DNA of 64,000 nucleotides from Granulicella sp. S156 (lineage in GTDB: Bacteria; Acidobacteriota; Terriglobia; Terriglobales; Acidobacteriaceae). The position numbers and the translations under genes are program-made. Below the pieces are notes generated by a model. That model was given only the letters and a program-made list of their open reading frames with translations, was not told the DNA's origin and made no database searches. The DNA is taken from NCBI RefSeq assembly GCF_009766105.1, contig NZ_LMUH01000013.1:62001-126000 (forward strand), in the 5' to 3' direction. This document shows positions 11,347-63,946 of the stretch, piece by piece; within the stretch, counting starts at the first letter, position 1, and each line of letters begins with the position of its first letter.

Positions 11347-11490
11347 TAAACTGTCATTTCGATTGAGTGGAGAGATTTCTGTATTTGGCTTGTAGCGGCG
11401 ATGGTGCTGACGCAGGCATCGCAGAATACAGGGGTCTCTCCACTCCGCATGACGATAAAACCATCATGCTCCGGTCGAGATGACAGTTTA
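11347..11490. repeat. Family A palindromic intergenic repeat, copy 1
   Basis: Ends are an exact inverted repeat TAAACTGTCAT / ATGACAGTTTA, with inner arms GAGTGGAGAGA.. and ..TCTCTCCACTC. It shares the block of CATGACGATAAAACCATCATGC followed by CGGTCGAGATGACAG with the copies near 36.7 and 48.3 kb. It lies between two convergent genes (response regulator and dehydrogenase) and could form a long hairpin on either transcript. Confidence 0.8.
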
Positions 11491-11499
11491 ATGTGACGC

Positions 11500-12441
11500 T
11501 TACGAAAGCAAGGGATACTTGACCCCGGTCAGTTCCTCGCTCACCTGCCACAGCTTCTTTCCGACCGCCTCATCGAGCGCCTGTGGGCGCGCTTGCACGA
11601 CCTTCGGATAGCCCTTGAATTCCATGAAGCCATCCGGGCCGATATATTCGCCTCCCTTGGCTTCCGGGGCAGTTGCGGCATAGAGCGTCGGCAGCGCGCC
11701 CATCACGTCATCCTGCATGATGAGCGGCGCGACCACCTTCAGCACGCGAACCTTTAGATCCTTGCTGCCCATCCCAGGGCCATTGTCGACGATGCTGGTC
11801 TTCGAGATGCCTGGATGCACCGGGATGCTGGCCAGCCTGCTGCCGGCGGCCCTGGCCCGGCGGTCGAGCTCGCGTGCGAACAGGATATTCGCCAGCTTCG
11901 AGTTGTTATAGGTGTCCCAGGGCACGTAGCTGCGCTCGCTCTGGAGGTTATCGAACTCGATCTTGCCGGTGCGGTGCGCCAGCGAGGCCACGGTGACGAC
12001 ACGTGGAGCGGGAGCGCCGCGAAACTGCGGTAGCAGCAGGCCGGTGAGCGCGAAGTGGCCAAGGTGGTTGGTGCCAAACTGCCGCTCGAAGCCGTCGGCT
12101 GTGAGTTCGCGCGTGGGCAGAGCCATCACGCCGGCGTTGTTGATTAGCAGGTCGAGCACACGCCCGCTGGCTATAAATCTCCGGGAAAAGTCGTGAATGG
12201 AGGTGAGCGACGCGATGTCCAGCTCCGCCACCTCGGCGCTGGCCCCAGGGGCCTCTCGGAGCAACCGCTCCAGGGCAGCCTGGCCCTTGGTAAGGCTGCG
12301 GACGCCCAGCAGCACGTGTGCCCCGTGGCGCGCGAGCTCCAGCGCAGCCTGGTAGCCGATGCCGCTGTTTGCGCCTGTGATGAGGACTGTTTTGCCTGTT
12401 TGGGAGGGGATTTGCCCTGCAACCCACTTTGTTGACGCCAT
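11500..12441 (-). CDS. Short-chain dehydrogenase/reductase
   Basis: NAD(P)-dependent oxidoreductase of the classical SDR superfamily, about 313 residues from the ATG at 12441. This start is preferred over a TTG at 12471 because GGAG lies 9 bp upstream. Visible motifs are the cofactor loop TGANSGIG (residues 22-29), the NNAGVMA motif, and the active-site YNNSK (Tyr-Lys). The sequence style (PWDTYNNSKLANILFARELDRR) is that of the retinol-dehydrogenase/WWOX-like branch often annotated as oxidoreductase. The substrate is unknown. Its stop codon abuts the right flank of a family A repeat. Confidence 0.9.
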   Translation of the reverse strand: MASTKWVAGQIPSQTGKTVLITGANSGIGYQAALELARHGAHVLLGVRSLTKGQAALERLLREAPGASAEVAELDIASLTSIHDFSRRFIASGRVLDLLINNAGVMALPTRELTADGFERQFGTNHLGHFALTGLLLPQFRGAPAPRVVTVASLAHRTGKIEFDNLQSERSYVPWDTYNNSKLANILFARELDRRARAAGSRLASIPVHPGISKTSIVDNGPGMGSKDLKVRVLKVVAPLIMQDDVMGALPTLYAATAPEAKGGEYIGPDGFMEFKGYPKVVQARPQALDEAVGKKLWQVSEELTGVKYPLLS

Positions 12442-15544: not shown

Positions 15545-16127
15545 AAGTTCTGGTACGGCCCTTCAGAGGCCAATAGGATTCACGTTGAATTTATTGGATG
15601 GTTCAAAAGCATCGGCAGACGCTTTTAATGGCATTCGCCCTTTCCCTAAATGGGTTAACGTTTGGCGTGGCCAAATATTGTCTAACGCTGCGTTTTTATG
15701 TTTATAGCGATGTTTTGCTCATTAAAGATCGCCCCAAAAATCTGTCATCTCGACCGAAGGCGGCGTTTTTTGCCGCCGTAGTAGAGAGACCCCTTGATGC
15801 AGAGCGTGATGCAAATGTTTGTGGCGCGCTTTGCGTCTAGAGCCCCCTGTATTTTGCCCGGAGCCGCATTGCCGCTTCGAGCAAAATACAGGGGTCTGTG
15901 GGTGTTGTGCAGACTTGCCGCAAAGCATTAGCGGGTGCAGCTTGCAAAGGGAGCTGAATTAGGAGACGATATCTTCATTGCCGAAAATAGAGTCGCGGGA
16001 TGGTATCTCCCGCAATCATCCCTCGGATGATCTCTTCACAGCCACGGCGCAACCTGACCAATGTCGGGAATGCGCATAACGTGGCTGTTTCGCGTTTATG
16101 GTGCATCCCGACAAGAAGGATGTACGC
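15545..16127. other. Long intergenic region between divergent MFS genes
   Basis: Contains an imperfect hairpin AAAAGC..GCTTTT (15605-15626), an AT-rich stretch near 15650-15740 and a truncated family A repeat (15741-15900). Open frames here overlap the MFS genes in antisense or lack ribosome sites, so I call no gene. Promoters of both flanking genes must lie here. Confidence 0.5.
15741..15900. repeat. Family A palindromic repeat, copy 2 (right end missing)
   Basis: The left end CTGTCATCTCGACCG and the inner GGCGGC..GCCGCC hairpin match the copies near 36.7 and 48.2 kb. It shares a module of about 40 bp beginning GCAGAGCGTGATGCAAATG with the 48.2 kb copy, then has its own inverted arms around CTGTATTTTG / CAAAATACAG. 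The usual right end TCGAGATGACAG is absent. Confidence 0.75.
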
Positions 16128-18536: not shown

Positions 18537-18660
18537 TAGAGCAGTTTCACGTTAAGTGCCATCTGACAGAATCTGAAGGGTTGTTTTTCTGAGGGGGAAC
18601 TCCGCAGGCAGCCTTCGCCCTGGAAGTATCCAGGGTGAAGACGCTGTAGCGGTCGCGCTA
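18537..18660. repeat. Possible decayed copy of the stop-codon-associated family B repeat
   Basis: Begins TAGAGCAGTTTCAC, a close match to the family B end, and ends in GCGCTA, where CTA is the complement of the stop codon of the zinc-ribbon gene. Its length (124 bp) is similar to intact copies, but the interior is poorly matched, so membership is uncertain. Confidence 0.4.
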
Positions 18661-19359: not shown

Positions 19360-19410
19360 CTCTCGAAGGCTACCCGAGACCCGCGCTGGGAGCAAACCGA
19401 GTGGCCGCTT

Positions 19411-19523
19411 GAGCGGTTTTACAGGTTGTGTAAGCCGACGCAAAAGGCGTTTGCGTGGTTTTCTCCACAGGAAAACCACACTGCACATTTTTTGCCGGTC
19501 GCAGTAGCTGTGAAACCGCTCTA
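19411..19523. repeat. Family B stop-codon-associated palindromic repeat, copy 1
   Basis: The ends GAGCGGTTT.. and ..AAACCGCTC are complementary, with central inverted arms GTGGTTTTCTCC / GGAAAACCAC. The right-hand CTA (19521-19523) is, on the minus strand, the TAG stop of the lipoprotein gene. The left flank is TT rather than TA. It matches the copies at 47.4 and 59.2 kb in order and spacing of blocks. Confidence 0.85.
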
Positions 19524-20135
19524 TTCGCTGTCGCTGTCTTTGCTGTCGTGACTGCCCAGGCCTGTGGGCAGGTCAAGAGCGACCATGCCAATCTTCGTGC
19601 CGCCATCCTTCGCTTCGATGCCTACGATGTGCTGGTGCTGCTCGGAGCCGGTGCGCAGCTCCAGGCCGGAGTTAGAGTCGTCCTCGTGGATGTGATTGCC
19701 ATGTTTCGAATCGCAGGTTAGCCCCTGGGAGGTTCGTGTGGGTTGACCGACCGGGTTGTTATCCCTGCACGCGATCACATCGCCATAGCGGGCAAGGTCC
19801 TTGCGGTAGAAGGCCTCCACTTTGCTCTGGGGATCGCTGGTCTGGTAGCTCGCTGCCTTGACGCCGAGGTGGAAGCTGCCAAAATTCATGTTGATATCGG
19901 CGGAGCCCCCGTCCGATTTCTCGCTGTTGCTTTTAATCAGCGCTGCGCCGGGGTAGGTGGTGATGCCGATAGTGGCGCTATTGCCCTTGTTGTCGGTCTT
20001 AACCTGCATGGAGCCGAAGGGAGTGCCAATATCAACGTTGTCGTTCTTGCCGTCTTTGTGGGTTGTAACATGGCAGCCGGCGAGCAGCAGTGCAGCCAGC
20101 GAAGCGGGGACAGCGAGCGAGCGGATAAAGTTCAT
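19521..20135 (-). CDS. Hypothetical lipoprotein
   Basis: 204 residues with a signal peptide and lipobox ending LLLAGC (Cys21). It is then hydrophilic: an N-terminal part with repeated Gly/Asn/Asp, a middle block with the short motif DPQSKVEAFYRKDLARYGDVIAC, and a Ser/Asp-rich C terminus (SHDSKDSDSE). The middle resembles conserved text in acidobacterial proteins annotated only as hypothetical. The TAG stop codon is provided by the end of a family B repeat, so the original C terminus may have differed slightly. Function unknown. Confidence 0.8.
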   Translation of the reverse strand: MNFIRSLAVPASLAALLLAGCHVTTHKDGKNDNVDIGTPFGSMQVKTDNKGNSATIGITTYPGAALIKSNSEKSDGGSADINMNFGSFHLGVKAASYQTSDPQSKVEAFYRKDLARYGDVIACRDNNPVGQPTRTSQGLTCDSKHGNHIHEDDSNSGLELRTGSEQHQHIVGIEAKDGGTKIGMVALDLPTGLGSHDSKDSDSE

Positions 20136-28047: not shown

Positions 28048-28347
28048 ATGTCTGGCAACAAGTATCTGGATCCGCCGCCGGCAGCGGTACGGGACAAAGC
28101 GTCGTTTGAGCTATTGCGCGTGTGGGTGGCCGAGCAGGGGCAGCACGTTAGCCTGCGCCCCGGCACGTGGGATGATCCGTTCGCCTGGGGTATAGTCCTC
28201 GCGGACCTTGCGCGTCACATCGTCAATGCGGAGTCGATACACCGCAAGAACTTCGATGAGGACGCATTTCTCGAACGCATGCTCGAAGGGTTCCGTGCCG
28301 AAATCGAGTCGCCGACAGATGATCCTGAAGGCGAGATCATGCAATAG
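28048..28347 (+). CDS. DUF5076 domain protein
   Basis: A 99-residue cytoplasmic protein. The middle text LRVWVAEQGQHVSLRPGTWDDPFAWGIVLADLARH matches the DUF5076 family as I know it; the role is unknown. GGGAGGA lies before the ATG at good spacing. The TAG stop is formed by the first three bases of a family B repeat copy. It may be cotranscribed with plsX (69 bp gap). Confidence 0.8.
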   Translation: MSGNKYLDPPPAAVRDKASFELLRVWVAEQGQHVSLRPGTWDDPFAWGIVLADLARHIVNAESIHRKNFDEDAFLERMLEGFRAEIESPTDDPEGEIMQ

Positions 28348-28453
28348 AGCGGTTTCACCGCTGCTGTAGTCTTGCCGAGCTCTTGCTTTGTGGTTTCATC
28401 GAAACCCACGCGAACGTCTTTCGCTCCGGCCCCATCTACGCTGAAATCGCTTA
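28345..28453. repeat. Family B stop-codon-associated repeat, copy 4 (diverged, reverse orientation)
   Basis: The left end TAGAGCGGTTTCAC is the stop codon (TAG) of the DUF5076 gene plus the family end. The interior GTGGTTT..AAACCCACGCGAACG and the block GTCTTTCGCTCCGG match the reverse complement of the 47.4 kb copy. The right end GAAATCGCTTA supplies the TAA stop of the convergent small gene. Confidence 0.75.
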
Positions 28454-28714
28454 CATCACCCGCGCGGCGAGTTCCAAGGCTGCCTGGATATGTTCCGCCC
28501 TGCTGCCGCAGACTTCAATCTTTGAGGCTGCATTGCGGGCTTCGTGCGTTGAACATCCGTAGCCGCGCCCGGTAAGAAAGTTTGCCACAATCTCTGCAGC
28601 CTGGAAGGAATCTACGCCTGATCGTAACAACTCGTTGCGAAGCACCGTGAGATCGTTGGTGTTGAATTTTTCAATGCCATAGGCAATGTCCTGCCGATTA
28701 TCCTTTTCTTTCAC
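28451..28714 (-). CDS. Hypothetical protein
   Basis: About 88 residues from the GTG at 28714, chosen because GAGG lies 8 bp upstream; the frame stays open to 28747 with alternative TTG/GTG starts. It is a soluble, mostly helical-looking protein (NDLTVLRNELLRSGVDSFQAAEIVANFL; AEHIQAALELAARVM). I do not recognise the family. Its TAA stop coincides with the end of a family B repeat, a pattern shared by undoubted genes in this window, which supports it being real. Confidence 0.5.
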   Translation of the reverse strand: MKEKDNRQDIAYGIEKFNTNDLTVLRNELLRSGVDSFQAAEIVANFLTGRGYGCSTHEARNAASKIEVCGSRAEHIQAALELAARVM

Positions 28715-28830
28715 TAAGTGCACCTCGTCGTATGGTATCGACACCAATATCAGCGCGTAGTTGTCCGCGTATGGTGCTCGTCGTTAGTTAGATGGTTTAT
28801 TGGGTGGTGGATTTATACCTTTAGAGGTAA

Positions 28831-29058
28831 CTAGACGAAATTGGGGTTGCTCCGCCGAAGCGCTTCCTGGAAAGAAATTTCGTACATTTTGTAAAAAAGG
28901 TTGTTTTGCAAAAATAGTTGTCTTACAGCCGGCGCGATAGGATCGCGATACGATAGAGATAGAGCGGTATCAATGTCACTAGAGCTCTGAAAATGCTGGA
29001 GAATGCCATTTTTCTTGAAAAATGGCGTCAAGCCCGGTAGCACCGAGTAAACCCACAT
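28831..29058 (-). CDS. Doubtful small ORF
   Basis: 75 codons from an ATG at 29058. The product is basic and aromatic (SLSYRDPIAPAVRQLFLQNNLFYKMYEISFQEALRR) with no recognised domain. There is no convincing ribosome site, and the 5' end lies inside a 13-bp inverted repeat. It could be a remnant in an AT-rich patch rather than a functional gene. Confidence 0.25.
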   Translation of the reverse strand: MWVYSVLPGLTPFFKKNGILQHFQSSSDIDTALSLSYRDPIAPAVRQLFLQNNLFYKMYEISFQEALRRSNPNFV

Positions 29059-29067
29059 TGATACCGC
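28964..29067. repeat. 13-bp inverted repeat enclosing a hairpin, upstream of folD
   Basis: GCGGTATCAATGT (28964-28976) and its exact complement ACATTGATACCGC (29055-29067) enclose 78 bp. Inside, GCCATTTTT-CTTG-AAAAATGGC can form a 9-bp hairpin. It may be a small mobile repeat or a regulatory structure before folD. Confidence 0.6.
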
Positions 29068-29091
29068 CCAATGCCCGATTTGGATGTGAAG

Positions 29092-30015
29092 ATGCGTGTT
29101 TTGGATGGTATTGCGATAGCTGGCGAGATCAAAGCCGAGGTCGCACGTGAGGTAGCTGCAGCTCGTGAGGCGGGATATACGCCCGGGCTTGCGGTAGTGT
29201 TGGTGGGCGATGTGGCGGCGTCACAGATCTATGTTCGCAGCAAGGTAAAGACTTGCGGCGAACTGGGGATCTACTCCGAGATGCACACCCCTCCGGAGAG
29301 CATTACGACGGAAGAGTTGCTCGCTCTGATCGGCTCGCTGAATGCGCGGGACGAGATCGACGGCATCCTCGTGCAGTTGCCGCTGCCGAAACATGTCGAT
29401 ACGGAGCGCCTGCTGGAAGCGGTCGTGCCGGAGAAGGACGTCGACGGCTTTCACCCCATCAATGCTGGACGGTTGTTGAGTGGAGCGCCGACCGAGCAGG
29501 TGCTTGCACCCTGTACGCCTGCGGGCATCATGGAAGTCCTTCGCCGCAGCGATATTCCCGTTGCTGGACAGCGCGCCGTCGTGCTCGGACGCTCGAATAT
29601 TGTAGGCAAGCCCATCGCCGCGATGCTGATCAATGCTTCGGCGACGGTGACGGTCTGCCACTCGCGCACGAAGGGGCTCGCGGAGATCGCGCGTGAGGCC
29701 GATATCCTTGTTGCCGCCATTGGACGGCCCGGATATGTGACGCCGGAGATGGTGAAGCCTGGTGCGACGCTGATCGATGTCGGCATCAACCGCCTGACAG
29801 AGGCCGCTGAGGTTGAGAAGTTCTTCCCTAATAATGCAGCGCGACGTGAGGGTTTTCTGAAGCGCGGGTCAACCGTCATCGGAGACATCGACCCTGCGGC
29901 GTTTGAACTCTCCGGAGCCTATACGCCTGTCCCCGGCGGTGTTGGTGCGCTGACCATTGCGATGCTGATGTCGAACACCGTGAAGGCCGCGCGCATGCGG
30001 CGAAACAGGAACTAG
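29092..30015 (+). CDS. folD: Bifunctional methylenetetrahydrofolate dehydrogenase / cyclohydrolase
   Basis: Converts 5,10-methylene-THF to 10-formyl-THF (NADP-linked). Both signatures are present: EMHTPPESITTEELLALIGSLN / DGILVQLPLPKHV around residues 60-95, and PVPGGVGALTIAMLMSNT at the C terminus. The catalytic Lys region is YVRSKVKTCGELGI. The ATG at 29092 (MRVLDG) is preferred because GGA lies 7 bp upstream; an in-frame ATG at 29071 lies just after an inverted repeat and lacks a site. coaE follows after 4 bp, so the two are one operon. Confidence 0.95.
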   Translation: MRVLDGIAIAGEIKAEVAREVAAAREAGYTPGLAVVLVGDVAASQIYVRSKVKTCGELGIYSEMHTPPESITTEELLALIGSLNARDEIDGILVQLPLPKHVDTERLLEAVVPEKDVDGFHPINAGRLLSGAPTEQVLAPCTPAGIMEVLRRSDIPVAGQRAVVLGRSNIVGKPIAAMLINASATVTVCHSRTKGLAEIAREADILVAAIGRPGYVTPEMVKPGATLIDVGINRLTEAAEVEKFFPNNAARREGFLKRGSTVIGDIDPAAFELSGAYTPVPGGVGALTIAMLMSNTVKAARMRRNRN

Positions 30016-36578: not shown

Positions 36579-36828
36579 TAGAGCATTTTCACCGATAGTG
36601 TGACGTGGTATTTTTCTACCCTTCGCACACCTTGTCATCTCGACCAGAGGCGGCGCTTTTTGCCGTCGTAGCGGAGAGACCTGCAATTTCTCCTGCGGCA
36701 CTATTGCCTGCGTGGGCAACCTGCAGGTCTCTCCACTGCGCATGACGATAAAACCATCATGCTCCGGTCGAGATGACAGTTCTGAGGTAATTCATCCCTC
36801 GCATCACACCATCGGTGCAAACACTCTA
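36579..36828. repeat. Composite repeat: family-B-like outer ends around a family A element
   Basis: The outer ends TAGAGCATTTTCACCGAT (36579) and ATCGGTGCAAACACTCTA (ending 36828) are imperfect inverted repeats with TA at each extreme. Inside, 36633-36778 is a full family A copy with ends TGTCATCTCGACC / GGTCGAGATGACA and arms GGAGAGACCTGCA / TGCAGGTCTCTCC. It fills the gap between two convergent receptor genes. Confidence 0.8.
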
Positions 36829-46861: not shown

Positions 46862-47392
46862 ATGTCCATCACACCTCCAAACTTCGATCAAGCGGAGTAC
46901 ATCGATACCCCCGTTCTGCCGCCGGCGGAGTTCGACTCCGCACTCTTTCTGCGTTCGCTTGCGTTTGGTGTCGCCGGGGCCATCCTGGGAGCCGTCATCT
47001 ATGCGGCGTTTATCGGCATCACGCATATTGAGATCGGCTATCTCGCCGTTGGCGTGGCTTACCTCGTCGCAAAGGCTATGACGATGGGTTCCAGTGGACG
47101 GGGAGGACGCCCCTATCAGATTGCAGCGTTAGTGATGACCTGCGGTGCGGTGGCCTTTGGCAATGCGCTGTTGCTGTGGTGGGGTGTGCGTAAGGATGGC
47201 GTGAATATTCCAATATCTGCGCACAACATCGTTGCGCTTGGGAAGTACGGCTTTTTAAAACCGTTCCTCGAATTCCATGATTCTCCTGGGGGAGCGATCC
47301 TGGGACTGTTCATTCTTTTTATCGGCCTGCGCGCAGCCTGGCGCATGACGTCTGGTGAACCCGGAGCTGTCCGGCATCCCTTCGCTCGCTAG
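46862..47392 (+). CDS. Small membrane protein, paralogue of the next gene
   Basis: About 176 residues from the ATG at 46862 (MSITPPNFDQAEYIDTP). Three to four hydrophobic segments (FGVAGAILGAVIYAAFIGI; GYLAVGVAYLVAKAM; IAALVMTCGAVAFGNALLLWW; AILGLFILFIGLRAAW). The text VAYLVAKAMTMGSSGRGGRPYQIAALV aligns with VGYAIGKAMRIGSHGFGGRRYQVMAAL in the downstream gene, and both end in HPF-x-x, so they are related. Function unknown. The TAG stop is the first three bases of a family B repeat. Confidence 0.75.
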   Translation: MSITPPNFDQAEYIDTPVLPPAEFDSALFLRSLAFGVAGAILGAVIYAAFIGITHIEIGYLAVGVAYLVAKAMTMGSSGRGGRPYQIAALVMTCGAVAFGNALLLWWGVRKDGVNIPISAHNIVALGKYGFLKPFLEFHDSPGGAILGLFILFIGLRAAWRMTSGEPGAVRHPFAR

Positions 47393-47505
47393 AGCGATTT
47401 CACAGTAGGTGCAAGCCGGAGCGAAAGACGGTTGCGTGGTTTTCTCCCAAGGAAAACCACATTGCACAATCTTTGCTGGATTTCAGTAACTGTGAAATCG
47501 CTCTA
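47390..47505. repeat. Family B stop-codon-associated palindromic repeat, copy 2
   Basis: A 14-bp perfect terminal inverted repeat, TAGAGCGATTTCAC / GTGAAATCGCTCTA, with TA at both extremes and an inner hairpin GTGGTTTTCTCCC / GGAAAACCAC. The first TAG is the stop codon of the upstream gene. It separates two related membrane-protein genes. Confidence 0.9.
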
Positions 47506-48125: not shown

Positions 48126-48423
48126 TAAAGCATTTTCCTGAGTAGTTGTGATGTGCCTCTTTCAATCCCACCCCTACCGTGTCATCTCGACCGGAGGCGG
48201 CGCTTTTGCCGCCGTAGCGGAGAGACCTGCAGGTTGCAGAGCGCGATGCAAATGTTTGTGGCGCGCTTTGCGTCAAGACCTGCAGGTTGTTTGCACCAGC
48301 ACTATCGCCTGCGCGGACAATCTGCAGGTCTCTCCACTTCGCATGACGATAAAACCATCATGCTACGGTCGAGATGACAGTTCTGTGGTGGTTCTTCCCT
48401 GCATCAGCACGACTCAGCTCTTA
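48126..48423. repeat. Composite repeat around a family A element, ending on the FecR-gene stop codon
   Basis: Outer arms are TAAAGCATTTTCCTGAGTAG on the left and ..GACTCAGCTCTTA on the right, imperfectly complementary. The final TTA (48421-48423) is the stop codon of the FecR-domain gene on the minus strand. Inside, 48180-48379 is a family A copy with ends TGTCATCTCGACC / GGTCGAGATGACA. It carries the extra module beginning GCAGAGCGCGATGCAAATG that is shared with the 15.8 kb copy. Confidence 0.75.
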
Positions 48424-54662: not shown

Positions 54663-55523
54663 TTATTGCTGGCAGTGCGGGCAATACATCGTCGTGCGTC
54701 CACCCACCACAATCTTCTTCAGCCCCGTCCCGCAGTCTGTGCAGTCCTCGCCTGCACGTCCATAGACCTTGTGCTCGAGTTGAAAGAACCCGCGCACGCC
54801 ATCTGCGTCGACGTAATCCGATACCGACGATCCGCCCAGCTCGATTGCATGCGCCAGCACCTTTTGAAGGGCCTCGTGCAGGCGTCCAAGCTCCGCGCGT
54901 GTTAGTTTCCCCGCCTGTTTTCGCGGCCGGATACCCGCTCGGAACAGGCTTTCATCTGCATAGATATTCCCAACCCCATGCAGGATCGACTGGTTCAGCA
55001 GCGCAGCTTTGATCGCCAGCTTGCGGCCCTTGAACAGCCCACCGAACGCCTCTGCGCTGACAGTCGTCGGCTCGACGCCCGGCCCCGTATAGCCTTCCGC
55101 CGTAGTCACTACCGAAAGCCGCCCGAACCGCCGCGGATCGACAAACCGAACCTCGCGCCCATCCGCGAGCGATAGCACCGCATGCGTATGCGGCGGTAGC
55201 GGAACTTCCGCCTGCGACACCAGCAGCCGCCCGGTCATTCCAAGATGGACGAGAAATTGTGCAGGACGGTCTTTGTCGTTGCTCTTGTTTTTCTTTCTGT
55301 CATTCCCGGAGGGAATCTGCTTCTGCTTCAGATCCATCACAATCGACTTGCCCACCCGTCGCACGCGCTCGATACGCGCGTTGGTCAGCGTCTCGACGAT
55401 CTCAGTTTCGGGAGACTTGAACGTCTGCGGCTTTCCGCTCGTCCAGACGCGCACGATCCGCTGTCCACGCACACGCGCATCCACACCATTGGCAACGGTT
55501 TCGACCTCGGGTAGTTCTGGCAT
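54663..55523 (-). CDS. mutM: Formamidopyrimidine-DNA glycosylase with an in-frame repeat insertion
   Basis: Excises oxidised purines such as 8-oxoG and cleaves the resulting abasic site. The N terminus MPELPEVETV supplies the catalytic Pro and Glu, and Lys59 (RVGKSIV) is the conserved beta-turn Lys. A helix-two-turns-helix (LNQSILHGVGNIYADESLFRAGIRP) and C-terminal zinc finger with CTDC and CPHC pairs are intact. Between MDL (residue 65) and FLVHLGMTGRL lie about 20 extra hydrophilic residues (KQKQIPSGNDRKKNKSNDKD), encoded by a short genomic repeat. The protein is otherwise normal, so the insertion is probably tolerated in a surface loop. Length 286 against about 270 typical. Confidence 0.95.
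   Translation of the reverse strand: MPELPEVETVANGVDARVRGQRIVRVWTSGKPQTFKSPETEIVETLTNARIERVRRVGKSIVMDLKQKQIPSGNDRKKNKSNDKDRPAQFLVHLGMTGRLLVSQAEVPLPPHTHAVLSLADGREVRFVDPRRFGRLSVVTTAEGYTGPGVEPTTVSAEAFGGLFKGRKLAIKAALLNQSILHGVGNIYADESLFRAGIRPRKQAGKLTRAELGRLHEALQKVLAHAIELGGSSVSDYVDADGVRGFFQLEHKVYGRAGEDCTDCGTGLKKIVVGGRTTMYCPHCQQ
55284..55327. repeat. Family C short repeat inside mutM
   Basis: Contains TTGTTTTTCT, then GTCATTCCC-GG-AGGGAATCTGCTT, with a small palindrome ATTCCC..GGGAAT. The same string occurs in the intergenic region after rpsA (63.88 kb). Here it is in frame with mutM and adds a Lys/Asn/Asp-rich loop. Confidence 0.7.
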
Positions 55524-57828: not shown

Positions 57829-59154
57829 GTGAGCCAGTCCCAGAGCAAGAGCCGCCGTCCGTCCGCCGTCATTCTAGGAGCCCAGTGGGGCGATGAAGGT
57901 AAGGGCAAGATCGTTGATGTTCTCAGCGAGAAGTTCGATATCGTCGCCCGCTACGCCGGAGGCCATAATGCCGGCCATACCGTCATCATCCACGGCAAGA
58001 AGTTCGTCCTGCAGCTCATTCCCTGCGGCGTGCTGCGTCCGGGCTGCAAGGGCGTCATCGGGAACGGTGTCGTGCTCGACCCGCAAGCCTTCCTCAACGA
58101 GGTCAAGAAGCTTCGCGAGGCCGGTCTTCCTGTCGACGGCCAGCTCTTCGTCTCGAACCGCGCCCAGGTCATTCTGCCGTACCACCGCATGATCGAACTC
58201 GCGGCGGAGACTGCTCCCGGCCGCCAGACCATCGGCACCACGCGCCGCGGCATCGGCCCGGCCTACGAGGACAAGATCCACCGTAACGGCCTGAGGGTCG
58301 TCGATCTTCTGAATACGTCGCTACTGCGCACACACATCAACAACGCCTGCCACGAGAAAAACACCATCGCGCACGCTCTTTTCGGCACCGAGCCGCTCGA
58401 CCCCCGGCAGATGTACGAGGAGTATGCCCGCCTGGCGGAACAGATAGCGCCCTTCGTCACCGACACCGCCTATCTGCTTAACAACGCCATCGAGCACGGG
58501 CAGAATGTGATGTTTGAAGGCGCGCAGGGTGCGCTGCTCGACATCGACCACGGAACCTACCCCTTCGTCACCAGCTCGTCCTCTACCGCCGGCGGCGCCG
58601 TCACCGGAACCGGCGTCGGCCCAACGAAGATTGGCACAGTCATTGGCGTCACGAAAGCCTACGTCACGCGCGTCGGCGAGGGCCCGTTCCCAACCGAGAT
58701 CTCCGATGCTTCCGGCGAACTGCTGCGTGCCCGTGGTCAGGAGTATGGCGCTGTCACCGGCCGTCCCCGTCGCTGCGGCTGGCTGGATCTCCCCTTGCTC
58801 CGCTACTCCAACATGATCAATTCGACGGAGTGGCTTGTCGTTACCAAGATGGACGTCATGGACGAGTGCCCTGAGATTCCCGTCTGCACGGGCTACAAGA
58901 TCGACGGCAAGGTCACCGACATCATCCCGGCAGATGTTCGCGGTTTCAAGAAGATCGAGCCTATCTACACCACGCTGAAGGGCTGGATGGCTCCGACCGA
59001 AGGCATCACCGAGTACGACAAGCTGCCGAAGCTGGCGCAGGAATACCTGGAGTTCGTCGAGCGCGAGAGCGGCGCGAAGATTGGCATGATCTCCACCGGC
59101 CCCGATCGCGTACAGACCATGACGCAGCCTGGTTTCGACGAAGCGCTCGGCTAG
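57829..59154 (+). CDS. purA: Adenylosuccinate synthetase
   Basis: First committed step from IMP to AMP, using GTP and aspartate. The family signature GAQWGDEGKGKIVDVL is at residues 17-32, followed by GGHNAGHT, GTTRRGIGPAYEDK, and GRPRRCGWLDLPLLRYS. At 441 residues it has normal length. It starts with a GTG at 57829 (MSQSQSKSRRPSAV). The TAG stop is the first three bases of a family B repeat, so the C-terminal end is fixed by the repeat. Confidence 0.97.
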   Translation: MSQSQSKSRRPSAVILGAQWGDEGKGKIVDVLSEKFDIVARYAGGHNAGHTVIIHGKKFVLQLIPCGVLRPGCKGVIGNGVVLDPQAFLNEVKKLREAGLPVDGQLFVSNRAQVILPYHRMIELAAETAPGRQTIGTTRRGIGPAYEDKIHRNGLRVVDLLNTSLLRTHINNACHEKNTIAHALFGTEPLDPRQMYEEYARLAEQIAPFVTDTAYLLNNAIEHGQNVMFEGAQGALLDIDHGTYPFVTSSSSTAGGAVTGTGVGPTKIGTVIGVTKAYVTRVGEGPFPTEISDASGELLRARGQEYGAVTGRPRRCGWLDLPLLRYSNMINSTEWLVVTKMDVMDECPEIPVCTGYKIDGKVTDIIPADVRGFKKIEPIYTTLKGWMAPTEGITEYDKLPKLAQEYLEFVERESGAKIGMISTGPDRVQTMTQPGFDEALG

Positions 59155-59266
59155 AGCGGGTTCATAGTGGGTGTAAGCGGAGCGGAAGGCGTTTGCGTGG
59201 TTTTCTCCCAAGGAAAACCACACTGCACAATCTTTGCTGGATCACAGTAACTGTGAAACCGCTCTA
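59152..59266. repeat. Family B stop-codon-associated palindromic repeat, copy 3
   Basis: Ends TAGAGCGGGTTCATAG and CTGTGAAACCGCTCTA (one or two mismatches), TA at both extremes, with an inner hairpin GTGGTTTTCTCCC / GGAAAACCAC. The first TAG is the stop codon of purA. Confidence 0.9.
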
Positions 59267-63831: not shown

Positions 63832-63884
63832 GCCACAAGAAAGGTCGCCCAACGGGGCGGCCTTTCTCGTGGCTTTTGTTTTTC
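63832..63884 (+). terminator. Terminator of rpsA
   Basis: A 19-bp stem with one mismatch and one G-T pair (63832-63850 with 63855-63873, inner part AAAGGTCGCCC / GGGCGGCCTTT), loop AACG, followed by TTTTGTTTTTC. Confidence 0.9.
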
Positions 63885-63916
63885 TGGTTGTCATTCCCTT
63901 AGGGAATCTGCTGTTG
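63874..63916. repeat. Family C short repeat after rpsA
   Basis: TTTTGTTTTTCTGGTTGTCATTCCC and then AGGGAATCTGCTG, matching the copy inside mutM (55.3 kb) in the same block order. Part of its T-rich start serves as the terminator tail. Confidence 0.65.
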
Positions 63917-63946
63917 GTTGGTGGGGCTGCTATTCTTCCCCCAGCC

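Follow-up and report, generated by a model that had tools for sequence, protein, structure and literature searches.

Repeated elements whose ends supply the stop codons of neighbouring genes are already known, as the descriptions of pneumococcal BOX elements and GTAG REPs make clear (PMC3049150, PMC3733652). For Streptococcus pneumoniae, the account of Croucher and others includes 36 annotated genes with the stop codon inside a BOX element, and describes truncation of these genes as not strongly evidenced (PMC3049150). Di Nocera and others report that the terminal TAG of GTAG REPs often supplies a stop codon, that these repeats lie mostly between convergent and unidirectional genes, that their stems vary within families, and that TIR-flanked Y1 transposases have been described from Acidobacteria (PMC3733652). 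Here we describe a family of hairpin elements recognised in a window of 64,000 nucleotides (the whole stretch of DNA analysed, C4:62001-126000) of the 6.44-Mb genome of a member of the Acidobacteriaceae, hereafter the host or G000, and followed into two relatives, G002, which is a single contig, and G022. Scattered reports of stop-supplying repeats thereby become a counted excess in three genomes, backed by empty sites. We consider it probable that the elements are non-autonomous, MITE-like hairpins moved in trans, whose TA-duplicating insertion leaves stop codons intact. A literature search of limited scope returned no account of this hairpin family or of a stop-codon excess corrected for sequence context.

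Covariance model searches placed six copies in the window, 109–116 bp in length, with ends of the form TAGAGC...GCTCTA and a central hairpin (Table 1). Four of the six had one end that coincided exactly with a gene's stop codon, as judged by our own three-periodic Markov gene caller, which was used in place of standard annotation and had itself replaced a weaker codon-usage scorer. The four genes are a membrane gene of 176 aa without a Pfam match, purA (PF00709), a minus-strand gene for which a Pfam search was likewise without match, and a DUF5076 gene (PF16826). The sequence-only reading of this DNA had proposed the same limits for copies 1 and 2 and for the reversed, diverged copy 4, all of which the model recovered. 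It had also named the minus-strand gene a lipoprotein, for which Pfam offered no match. Its third copy was also found, but with a left limit two bases outside the proposed 19411, where the element begins with TT; a possible decayed copy said to span 18537-18660 and to end on a stop codon was found as copy 6, which ends at 18648, short of the nearest stop. Stop codons at the element's extremes were confirmed for the four genes above, but not for a small convergent gene (28451-28747) that had been given a share in copy 4, and which was not called as coding and had no Pfam match. Copy 5 had been overlooked in the sequence-only reading. On the plus strand, its end gives the A of the ATG of a folD-like gene (29071-30015), and the real start of this gene may lie downstream of the ATG that touches the element. 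For five window copies, the energies of the RNA folds predicted for the two strands lay between -33.5 and -53.6 kcal/mol. The window also contains a different, longer dispersed repeat of the TGTCATCTCGACC...GGCGGCG type (11405-11506, 15723-15857, 36613-36799 and 48160-48400), pieces of which were placed by BLAST at many positions in G002 and G022, and a two-copy repeat around TGTCATTCCC...GGGAATCTGC (55264-55328 and 63855-63919).

Table 1. Element copies in the window and the stop codons made by their ends
Feature	Position	Strand	Remarks
Element copy 1	47390..47505	+	TA at both ends; covariance model; site empty in relative G002
TAG stop of gene 46862-47392	47390..47392	+	Made by the element's left end
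Element copy 2	59152..59266	+	TA at both ends; covariance model
TAG stop of purA 57829-59154	59152..59154	+	Made by the element's left end
Element copy 3	19409..19523	+	Left end TT, right end TA; covariance model
TAG stop of minus-strand gene 19521-20135	19521..19523	-	Made by the element's right end
Element copy 4, diverged	28345..28453	-	Covariance model
TAG stop of DUF5076 gene 28048-28347	28345..28347	+	Made by the reversed element's right end
Element copy 5	28960..29071	-	E 1.1e-9; stop codon at neither end
Element copy 6, decayed	18537..18648	-	E 1.2e-6; closest stop 12 nt beyond modelled end

A BLAST search of the host genome with the copy at 47390 gave 22 matches, one of which was the other strand of the query copy. 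The first covariance model was built from 16 copies and used to search both the window and the host genome; its matches, together with one short form from a tip-pattern search, make up the 78 host places that are counted below, including five weak ones (E 0.03-0.46 with this model, and absent at E 0.01 with its successor). A second model, built from 56 copies, gave eight additional host places that lie outside the 78, and among these the copy at 28960 in the window was inspected. The host total is at least about 86 candidate places, a few of them weak, with the best 150 candidates scored per search, so that further host copies may have been overlooked. Element matches occurred in 22 of 41 genomes: the host, 18 of the 24 further genomes searched in its genus, and three of one sister-family genus. 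The sets analysed from the relatives are the best 29 of 64 matches in G002 and the best 25 of 72 in G022, where matches may count both strands, and five copies that represent the same insertion in two genomes were removed from pooled counts. Most copies are 105-118 bp long, and they are dispersed across many contigs. Five identical 116-bp copies (L216-L220) stand at five places in G022, two of them exactly on a stop codon. The closest named purA matches in GTDB contigs came from MAGs that carry the labels Edaphobacter (86% identity) and Granulicella (85%), and neither the purA-scan loci run through the model (12 of 80) nor the orthologue loci (19 of 40) gave an element match at E 0.01.

The outer 17 bases of the two ends pair with each other (93.1% of cells paired), forming terminal inverted repeats, and a central 8-bp hairpin lies near the middle of the element. 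At about 115 bp, the element is too short to contain a transposase gene. Outer stems differ by subfamily (for example GAGCRRTTTCACAGT, GAGCAGTTCCCGTAT, GAGCAGAATCCCTAT and GAGCATTTTCCCTAT), as do inner stems (for example GTGGTTTTC, GCTGTTTTTC, GTCGTTTTTC and GGCACTTTTC), and pairing is kept across subfamilies despite these changes, in 94.5% of cells over both stems. The covariation score was 0.489, against a mean of 0.172 for shuffled alignments and at most 0.117 for slid versions. Two very short forms, L135:2001-2035 (35 bp) and L145:2001-2050 (50 bp), retain little beyond the two ends, and are possible deletion derivatives. Copies common to G002 and G022 (L146/L147 and L199/L226) have clustered differences in the inner hairpin, and the changes in L199 lead to a longer perfect palindrome, as hairpin template switching would give. 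Hairpin-templated mutation could produce such paired stem changes, and the covariation therefore need not imply an RNA function. An Rfam scan of five copy-bearing loci at E up to 1 found no match over the element, and two weak matches elsewhere in the loci.

The target was derived from 42 non-stop copies with both TA intact, which carried G at position -2 in 74%, C at -1 in 69%, then TA, and then a purine in 89%. The preferred target is close to SGC-TA-R and asymmetric relative to the element, with most insertions in one orientation (CTAA in 10 against TTAG in 2 of the 42). Comparison with empty sites identified TA as the target-site duplication. Most copies have G, and some A, directly after the TA; a TAG or TAA stop is thereby restored, and the protein keeps its C-terminus. 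Over the three genomes, the left TA was altered at 36 of 96 unprotected ends, compared to 16 of 109 for the right TA (P 2e-4), and this excess of changes, together with the asymmetry of the target, hints at a strand-aware process.

Empty sites contained a single TA within a TAA or TAG stop, which was duplicated on insertion, with the G of the element restoring TAG; a comparison of this kind had been proposed as a check on the original reading, and it came out as anticipated. At the purA locus, G002 is empty and reads GGC-TAA-ACAG, and G022 reads GGC-TA[element]TA-AACAG. The window carries a different subfamily from that of G022 at the identical TA of the purA stop codon, which implies that this stop codon received two separate insertions, unless one element replaced the other. 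Likewise, the G002 orthologue of gene 46862-47392 has no element and the same terminal codon, followed by TAA. Orthologues were sought for 34 coding ends and compared at 24 loci (42 comparisons), 10 of the 34 ends having none fetched; L183, where the orthologue is also filled, and L226, where the tail is unaligned, were left out, which leaves 22 informative loci. The terminal codon was identical in the orthologue at 19 of these 22 and at both purA and 46862-47392, or 21 of 24 informative loci altogether. The hits compared at L216 and L218 were weak (74% and 70% identity) and possibly paralogues. The genes at L007, L055 and L072 end one or two codons off their orthologues, and at two of the 19 matching loci a second orthologue stops three codons further on (L075 in G002, L208 in G000). 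Both orthologues of gene 19521-20135, in G002 and G022, stop two codons sooner. The TA duplication can be followed base for base at L208, L209, L210, L228, L074 and L100, with one TA point-changed at L100. Read in the direction of the gene, an A or G follows the far TA in 23 of the 25 stop copies of the host and at 27 of the 28 stop ends of the two relatives, which indicates that, barring later mutation, the element interrupted a TAA or a TAG. In 7 of the 25 host copies, the far TA has itself been altered or displaced.

An exact stop codon was found at one end in 25 of the 78 host places (15 left, 10 right) and in 26 of 54 copies from G002 and G022 (18 left ends, 10 right ends), where L196 and L227 are one shared insertion that serves two convergent genes. 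Pooled over the three genomes with shared insertions removed, 48 of 127 copies (38%) stand on a stop codon. The share rises to 41 of 82 among copies with both TA intact, a set that favours stop copies because selection protects one end there; it is 7 of 40 among host copies with a changed tip, which may reflect age or this same selective protection of one end at stop copies. Weighting non-coding TA sites by the target matrix gave an expected stop share of 14.2% (bootstrap 11-18%), under a null that masks occupied stop codons and so lowers the expectation. Repeated without masking, the null gave 16% for the window with elements removed, and 22% for the loci taken for synteny and orthologue comparison, many of them selected around gene ends. 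Even with 25% expected, 48 of 127 gives P 0.001. Among the 111 of 127 copies with a called gene on both sides, the stop share was 18/26 between convergent genes, against 25% expected, and 28/71 between tandem genes, against 13%. Under a similar filter and a simpler context weight, 49 of 115 copies fell on the stop itself (position 0; 13.2% expected), 10 at 1-15 nt past it (3.8% expected) and 11 at 16-50 nt (9.7% expected), and farther classes were under expectation. The excess peaks on the stop codon itself and may reach a few bases further, and the surplus at 1-15 nt downstream makes a general bias towards gene 3' ends possible. Flank GC content was considered as a possible confounder of the excess at stops and set aside, non-stop CTAR copies being similar to background CTAR sites. 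Across the three genomes, the element occupies stop codons in excess of its sequence context, the enrichment for which the sequence-only reading had proposed to look.

The TA duplication, inverted ends, dispersal and the five identical G022 copies point to a non-autonomous mobile element, and we infer that the elements move by transposition and own no transposase. A MITE-like family with TA-type ends and an inner hairpin had been proposed from the window; the short, dispersed copies, their inverted repeats and the TA duplication bear this out. In the mechanism that we favour, mobile hairpins of about 115 bp would be mobilised in trans and would insert, mostly in one orientation, into an asymmetric SGC-TA-R-like target whose TA is duplicated. 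The element proper would begin with G, or sometimes A, and would convert a TAA or TAG stop to TAG (or TAA) in frame with the protein unchanged. Such regeneration of the stop had likewise been proposed, and it agrees with the single TA at empty sites and with the first base of the copies.

Why stop codons are occupied so often can be explained in more than one way. The original proposal of a safe-harbour niche falls short as a full cause, because the excess persists between convergent genes. In its pure form, insertion would follow target sequence alone and selection would purge most other non-coding insertions, which we regard as a serious possibility, if somewhat short of an even chance. It is in keeping with the finding that no called gene is interrupted by a tabulated copy, except for one overlap (L076), which means that selection against, or avoidance of, coding DNA is strong, and with a slight depletion of divergent intergenic regions (10/71 and 4/44 copies vs 19% expected). 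However, moving the share from 14% to 50% would require the loss of more than 80% of the other intergenic insertions, and convergent genes, which have no promoter to spoil between them, still show their excess. We infer that an insertion bias towards stop codons or gene 3' ends is marginally the better bet, with better survival slightly under evens; the lean to insertion is slight, and arises because survival requires that most other insertions were lost, yet the convergent excess holds. A stronger version, that the machinery prefers genuine stops beyond the local bases and also reads the folded shape, with subfamilies converging on the same stops as at purA, is rather doubtful. Y1-type (HUH) single-strand mobility, akin to that of REPs and TIR-flanked Y1 transposases and recognising the folded hairpin instead of the stem sequence, seems unlikely to us. 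Stems that vary in sequence and remain paired, a target that is asymmetric relative to the element, a left TA that is intact less often than the right (60/96 vs 93/109, P 2e-4), and the report of TIR-flanked Y1 transposases in Acidobacteria (PMC3733652) would all fit such mobility. It is opposed by the distribution of the genes, since G025 has 31 element matches and no Y1 match, and Y1 genes occur in G007 and G024, where the element has no match. Furthermore, 30 Y1 loci scanned had no element copy within about 1.5 kb, and the inverted repeats at 17 Y1 loci differ from those of the element, one of them sharing no more than the opening hexamer TAGAGC. The best 29 G002 copies showed no strand bias between replication halves (15 vs 14, counted by hand with the origin assumed at base 1), and the preference for a purine after the TA would be unexpected.

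A conserved RNA element of gene 3' ends, such as an mRNA stabiliser or a terminator-like hairpin held by positive selection after its spread, would account for the strong covariation in both stems, the very stable predicted folds and the position at gene 3' ends, but we judge it improbable. The stop codon stands at the left or the right end of the element (15 and 10 in the host, 18 and 10 in the relatives), so that either strand is transcribed, although the fold is nearly symmetrical and this indifference to strand is therefore a weak argument. Also against it, 14 of the 111 copies flanked by a called gene on each side fall between divergent genes, most orthologous sites are empty, the Rfam scan matched nothing over the element at the five loci, and the paired stem changes can also be explained by hairpin-templated mutation (L146/L147, L199/L226). 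That the coincidence with stop codons is an artefact, in which the element landed within the 3' portion of genes that its TAG then truncated, we consider hardly credible. A terminal TAG would halt one reading frame in three anywhere, and the orthologues at L072 are indeed two codons longer, but orthologues share the terminal codon at 21 of the 24 informative loci, and a TAA or TAG is completed by the far flank in 23 of the 25 host cases and 27 of the 28 in the relatives. The preferred reading of TA-duplicating, non-autonomous hairpins thus agrees with the original inference, which is supported overall, except for the small convergent gene, the stop codon of the decayed copy, the safe harbour as a full cause, and the Correia-like kinship, which gained no backing because the searches described below met with no transposase bearing these ends.

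Searches for a mobilising transposase covered several families. The IS630 domain DDE_3 had no match in G000, where a copy may have been lost or left unassembled, or in G002, which is one contig, and gave one 73-aa fragment in G022. DUF4096 transposases (IS427-type) were absent from G000 and G002, and two were present in G022, where one IS427-type element (L232:1419-2257) has 21-nt ends that begin CTAGGGCGTGTCATC, unlike those of the hairpin element. Y1 transposases are common, and their presence does not track the element over 34 genomes. The Y1 genes at L236, L238 and L249 bear flanking inverted repeats of their own, for example AGAGCGCTGTAAGCGCGATCTAT in G000. None of the three families is supported as the mobiliser. 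A tip-pattern search of G002 gave 59 hits, and the seven loci inspected contained ordinary genes and no mobile element enclosing a transposase; some adjoin further short copies of the element. The transposase gene with the same ends that the sequence-only reading had suggested looking for was found neither among the IS630, IS427-type and Y1 families nor at the loci inspected from the G002 tip search, and no autonomous parent with matching ends was seen in the DDE_3 and DUF4096 searches of three genomes or at the seven G002 loci.

These results describe a simple route by which a mobile element can occupy gene ends and leave proteins unaltered. Stems that change and yet remain paired make it possible to test shape-reading transposition against hairpin-templated mutation, and it can also be tested whether a hairpin that contains a stop codon alters termination or message stability.

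Several described elements resemble the family in part. Correia elements have a TA target, and IS427-type insertion sequences of the IS5 family duplicate TA within a CTAR-like target. The latter differ in that DUF4096 is absent from G000 and G002, and in the ends of the G022 example noted above. Correia elements of Neisseria are, like ours, small inverted-repeat elements without a transposase gene (PMC2229807), but lengths, internal hairpin and host (Neisseria vs Acidobacteriaceae) differ, and the likeness is one of description only. BOX of Streptococcus pneumoniae is similarly small, interspersed and structured, and can hold the stop codons of genes; as described, however, it is modular (boxA, B and C) and can exceed 500 bp (PMC3049150), a comparison made by description only, whereas the present element is one symmetrical unit of about 115 bp with several stem subfamilies and TA-duplicating empty sites in stop codons. 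GTAG REPs, served by RAYT or TIRYT transposases, share with it the palindromic form, the terminal TAG that acts as a stop, and the variable stems, but are described as 20-40 bp long with a GTAG tag (PMC3733652), compared to about 115 bp here. In our family TAG is mostly preceded by C, a base that belongs to the target, insertion duplicates TA, and the occurrence of Y1 genes does not follow that of the element, so that the family has neither the GTAG tag with a 20-40 bp palindrome nor the associated RAYT of a REP or REPIN. RUP of pneumococcus (107 bp) and the enterobacterial RU-1 (127 bp) and RU-2 are alike in size, terminal inverted repeats, TA targets and stable stem-loops (PMC2229807, PMC2759123). 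They differ from the present element in sequence and host, and RUP has been linked to an IS630 element (PMC2229807, PMC2759123), whereas DDE_3 is absent from the element hosts G000 and G002. What the family shows, namely short dispersed copies without a transposase gene, terminal inverted repeats and a target-site duplication, is what characterises a MITE.
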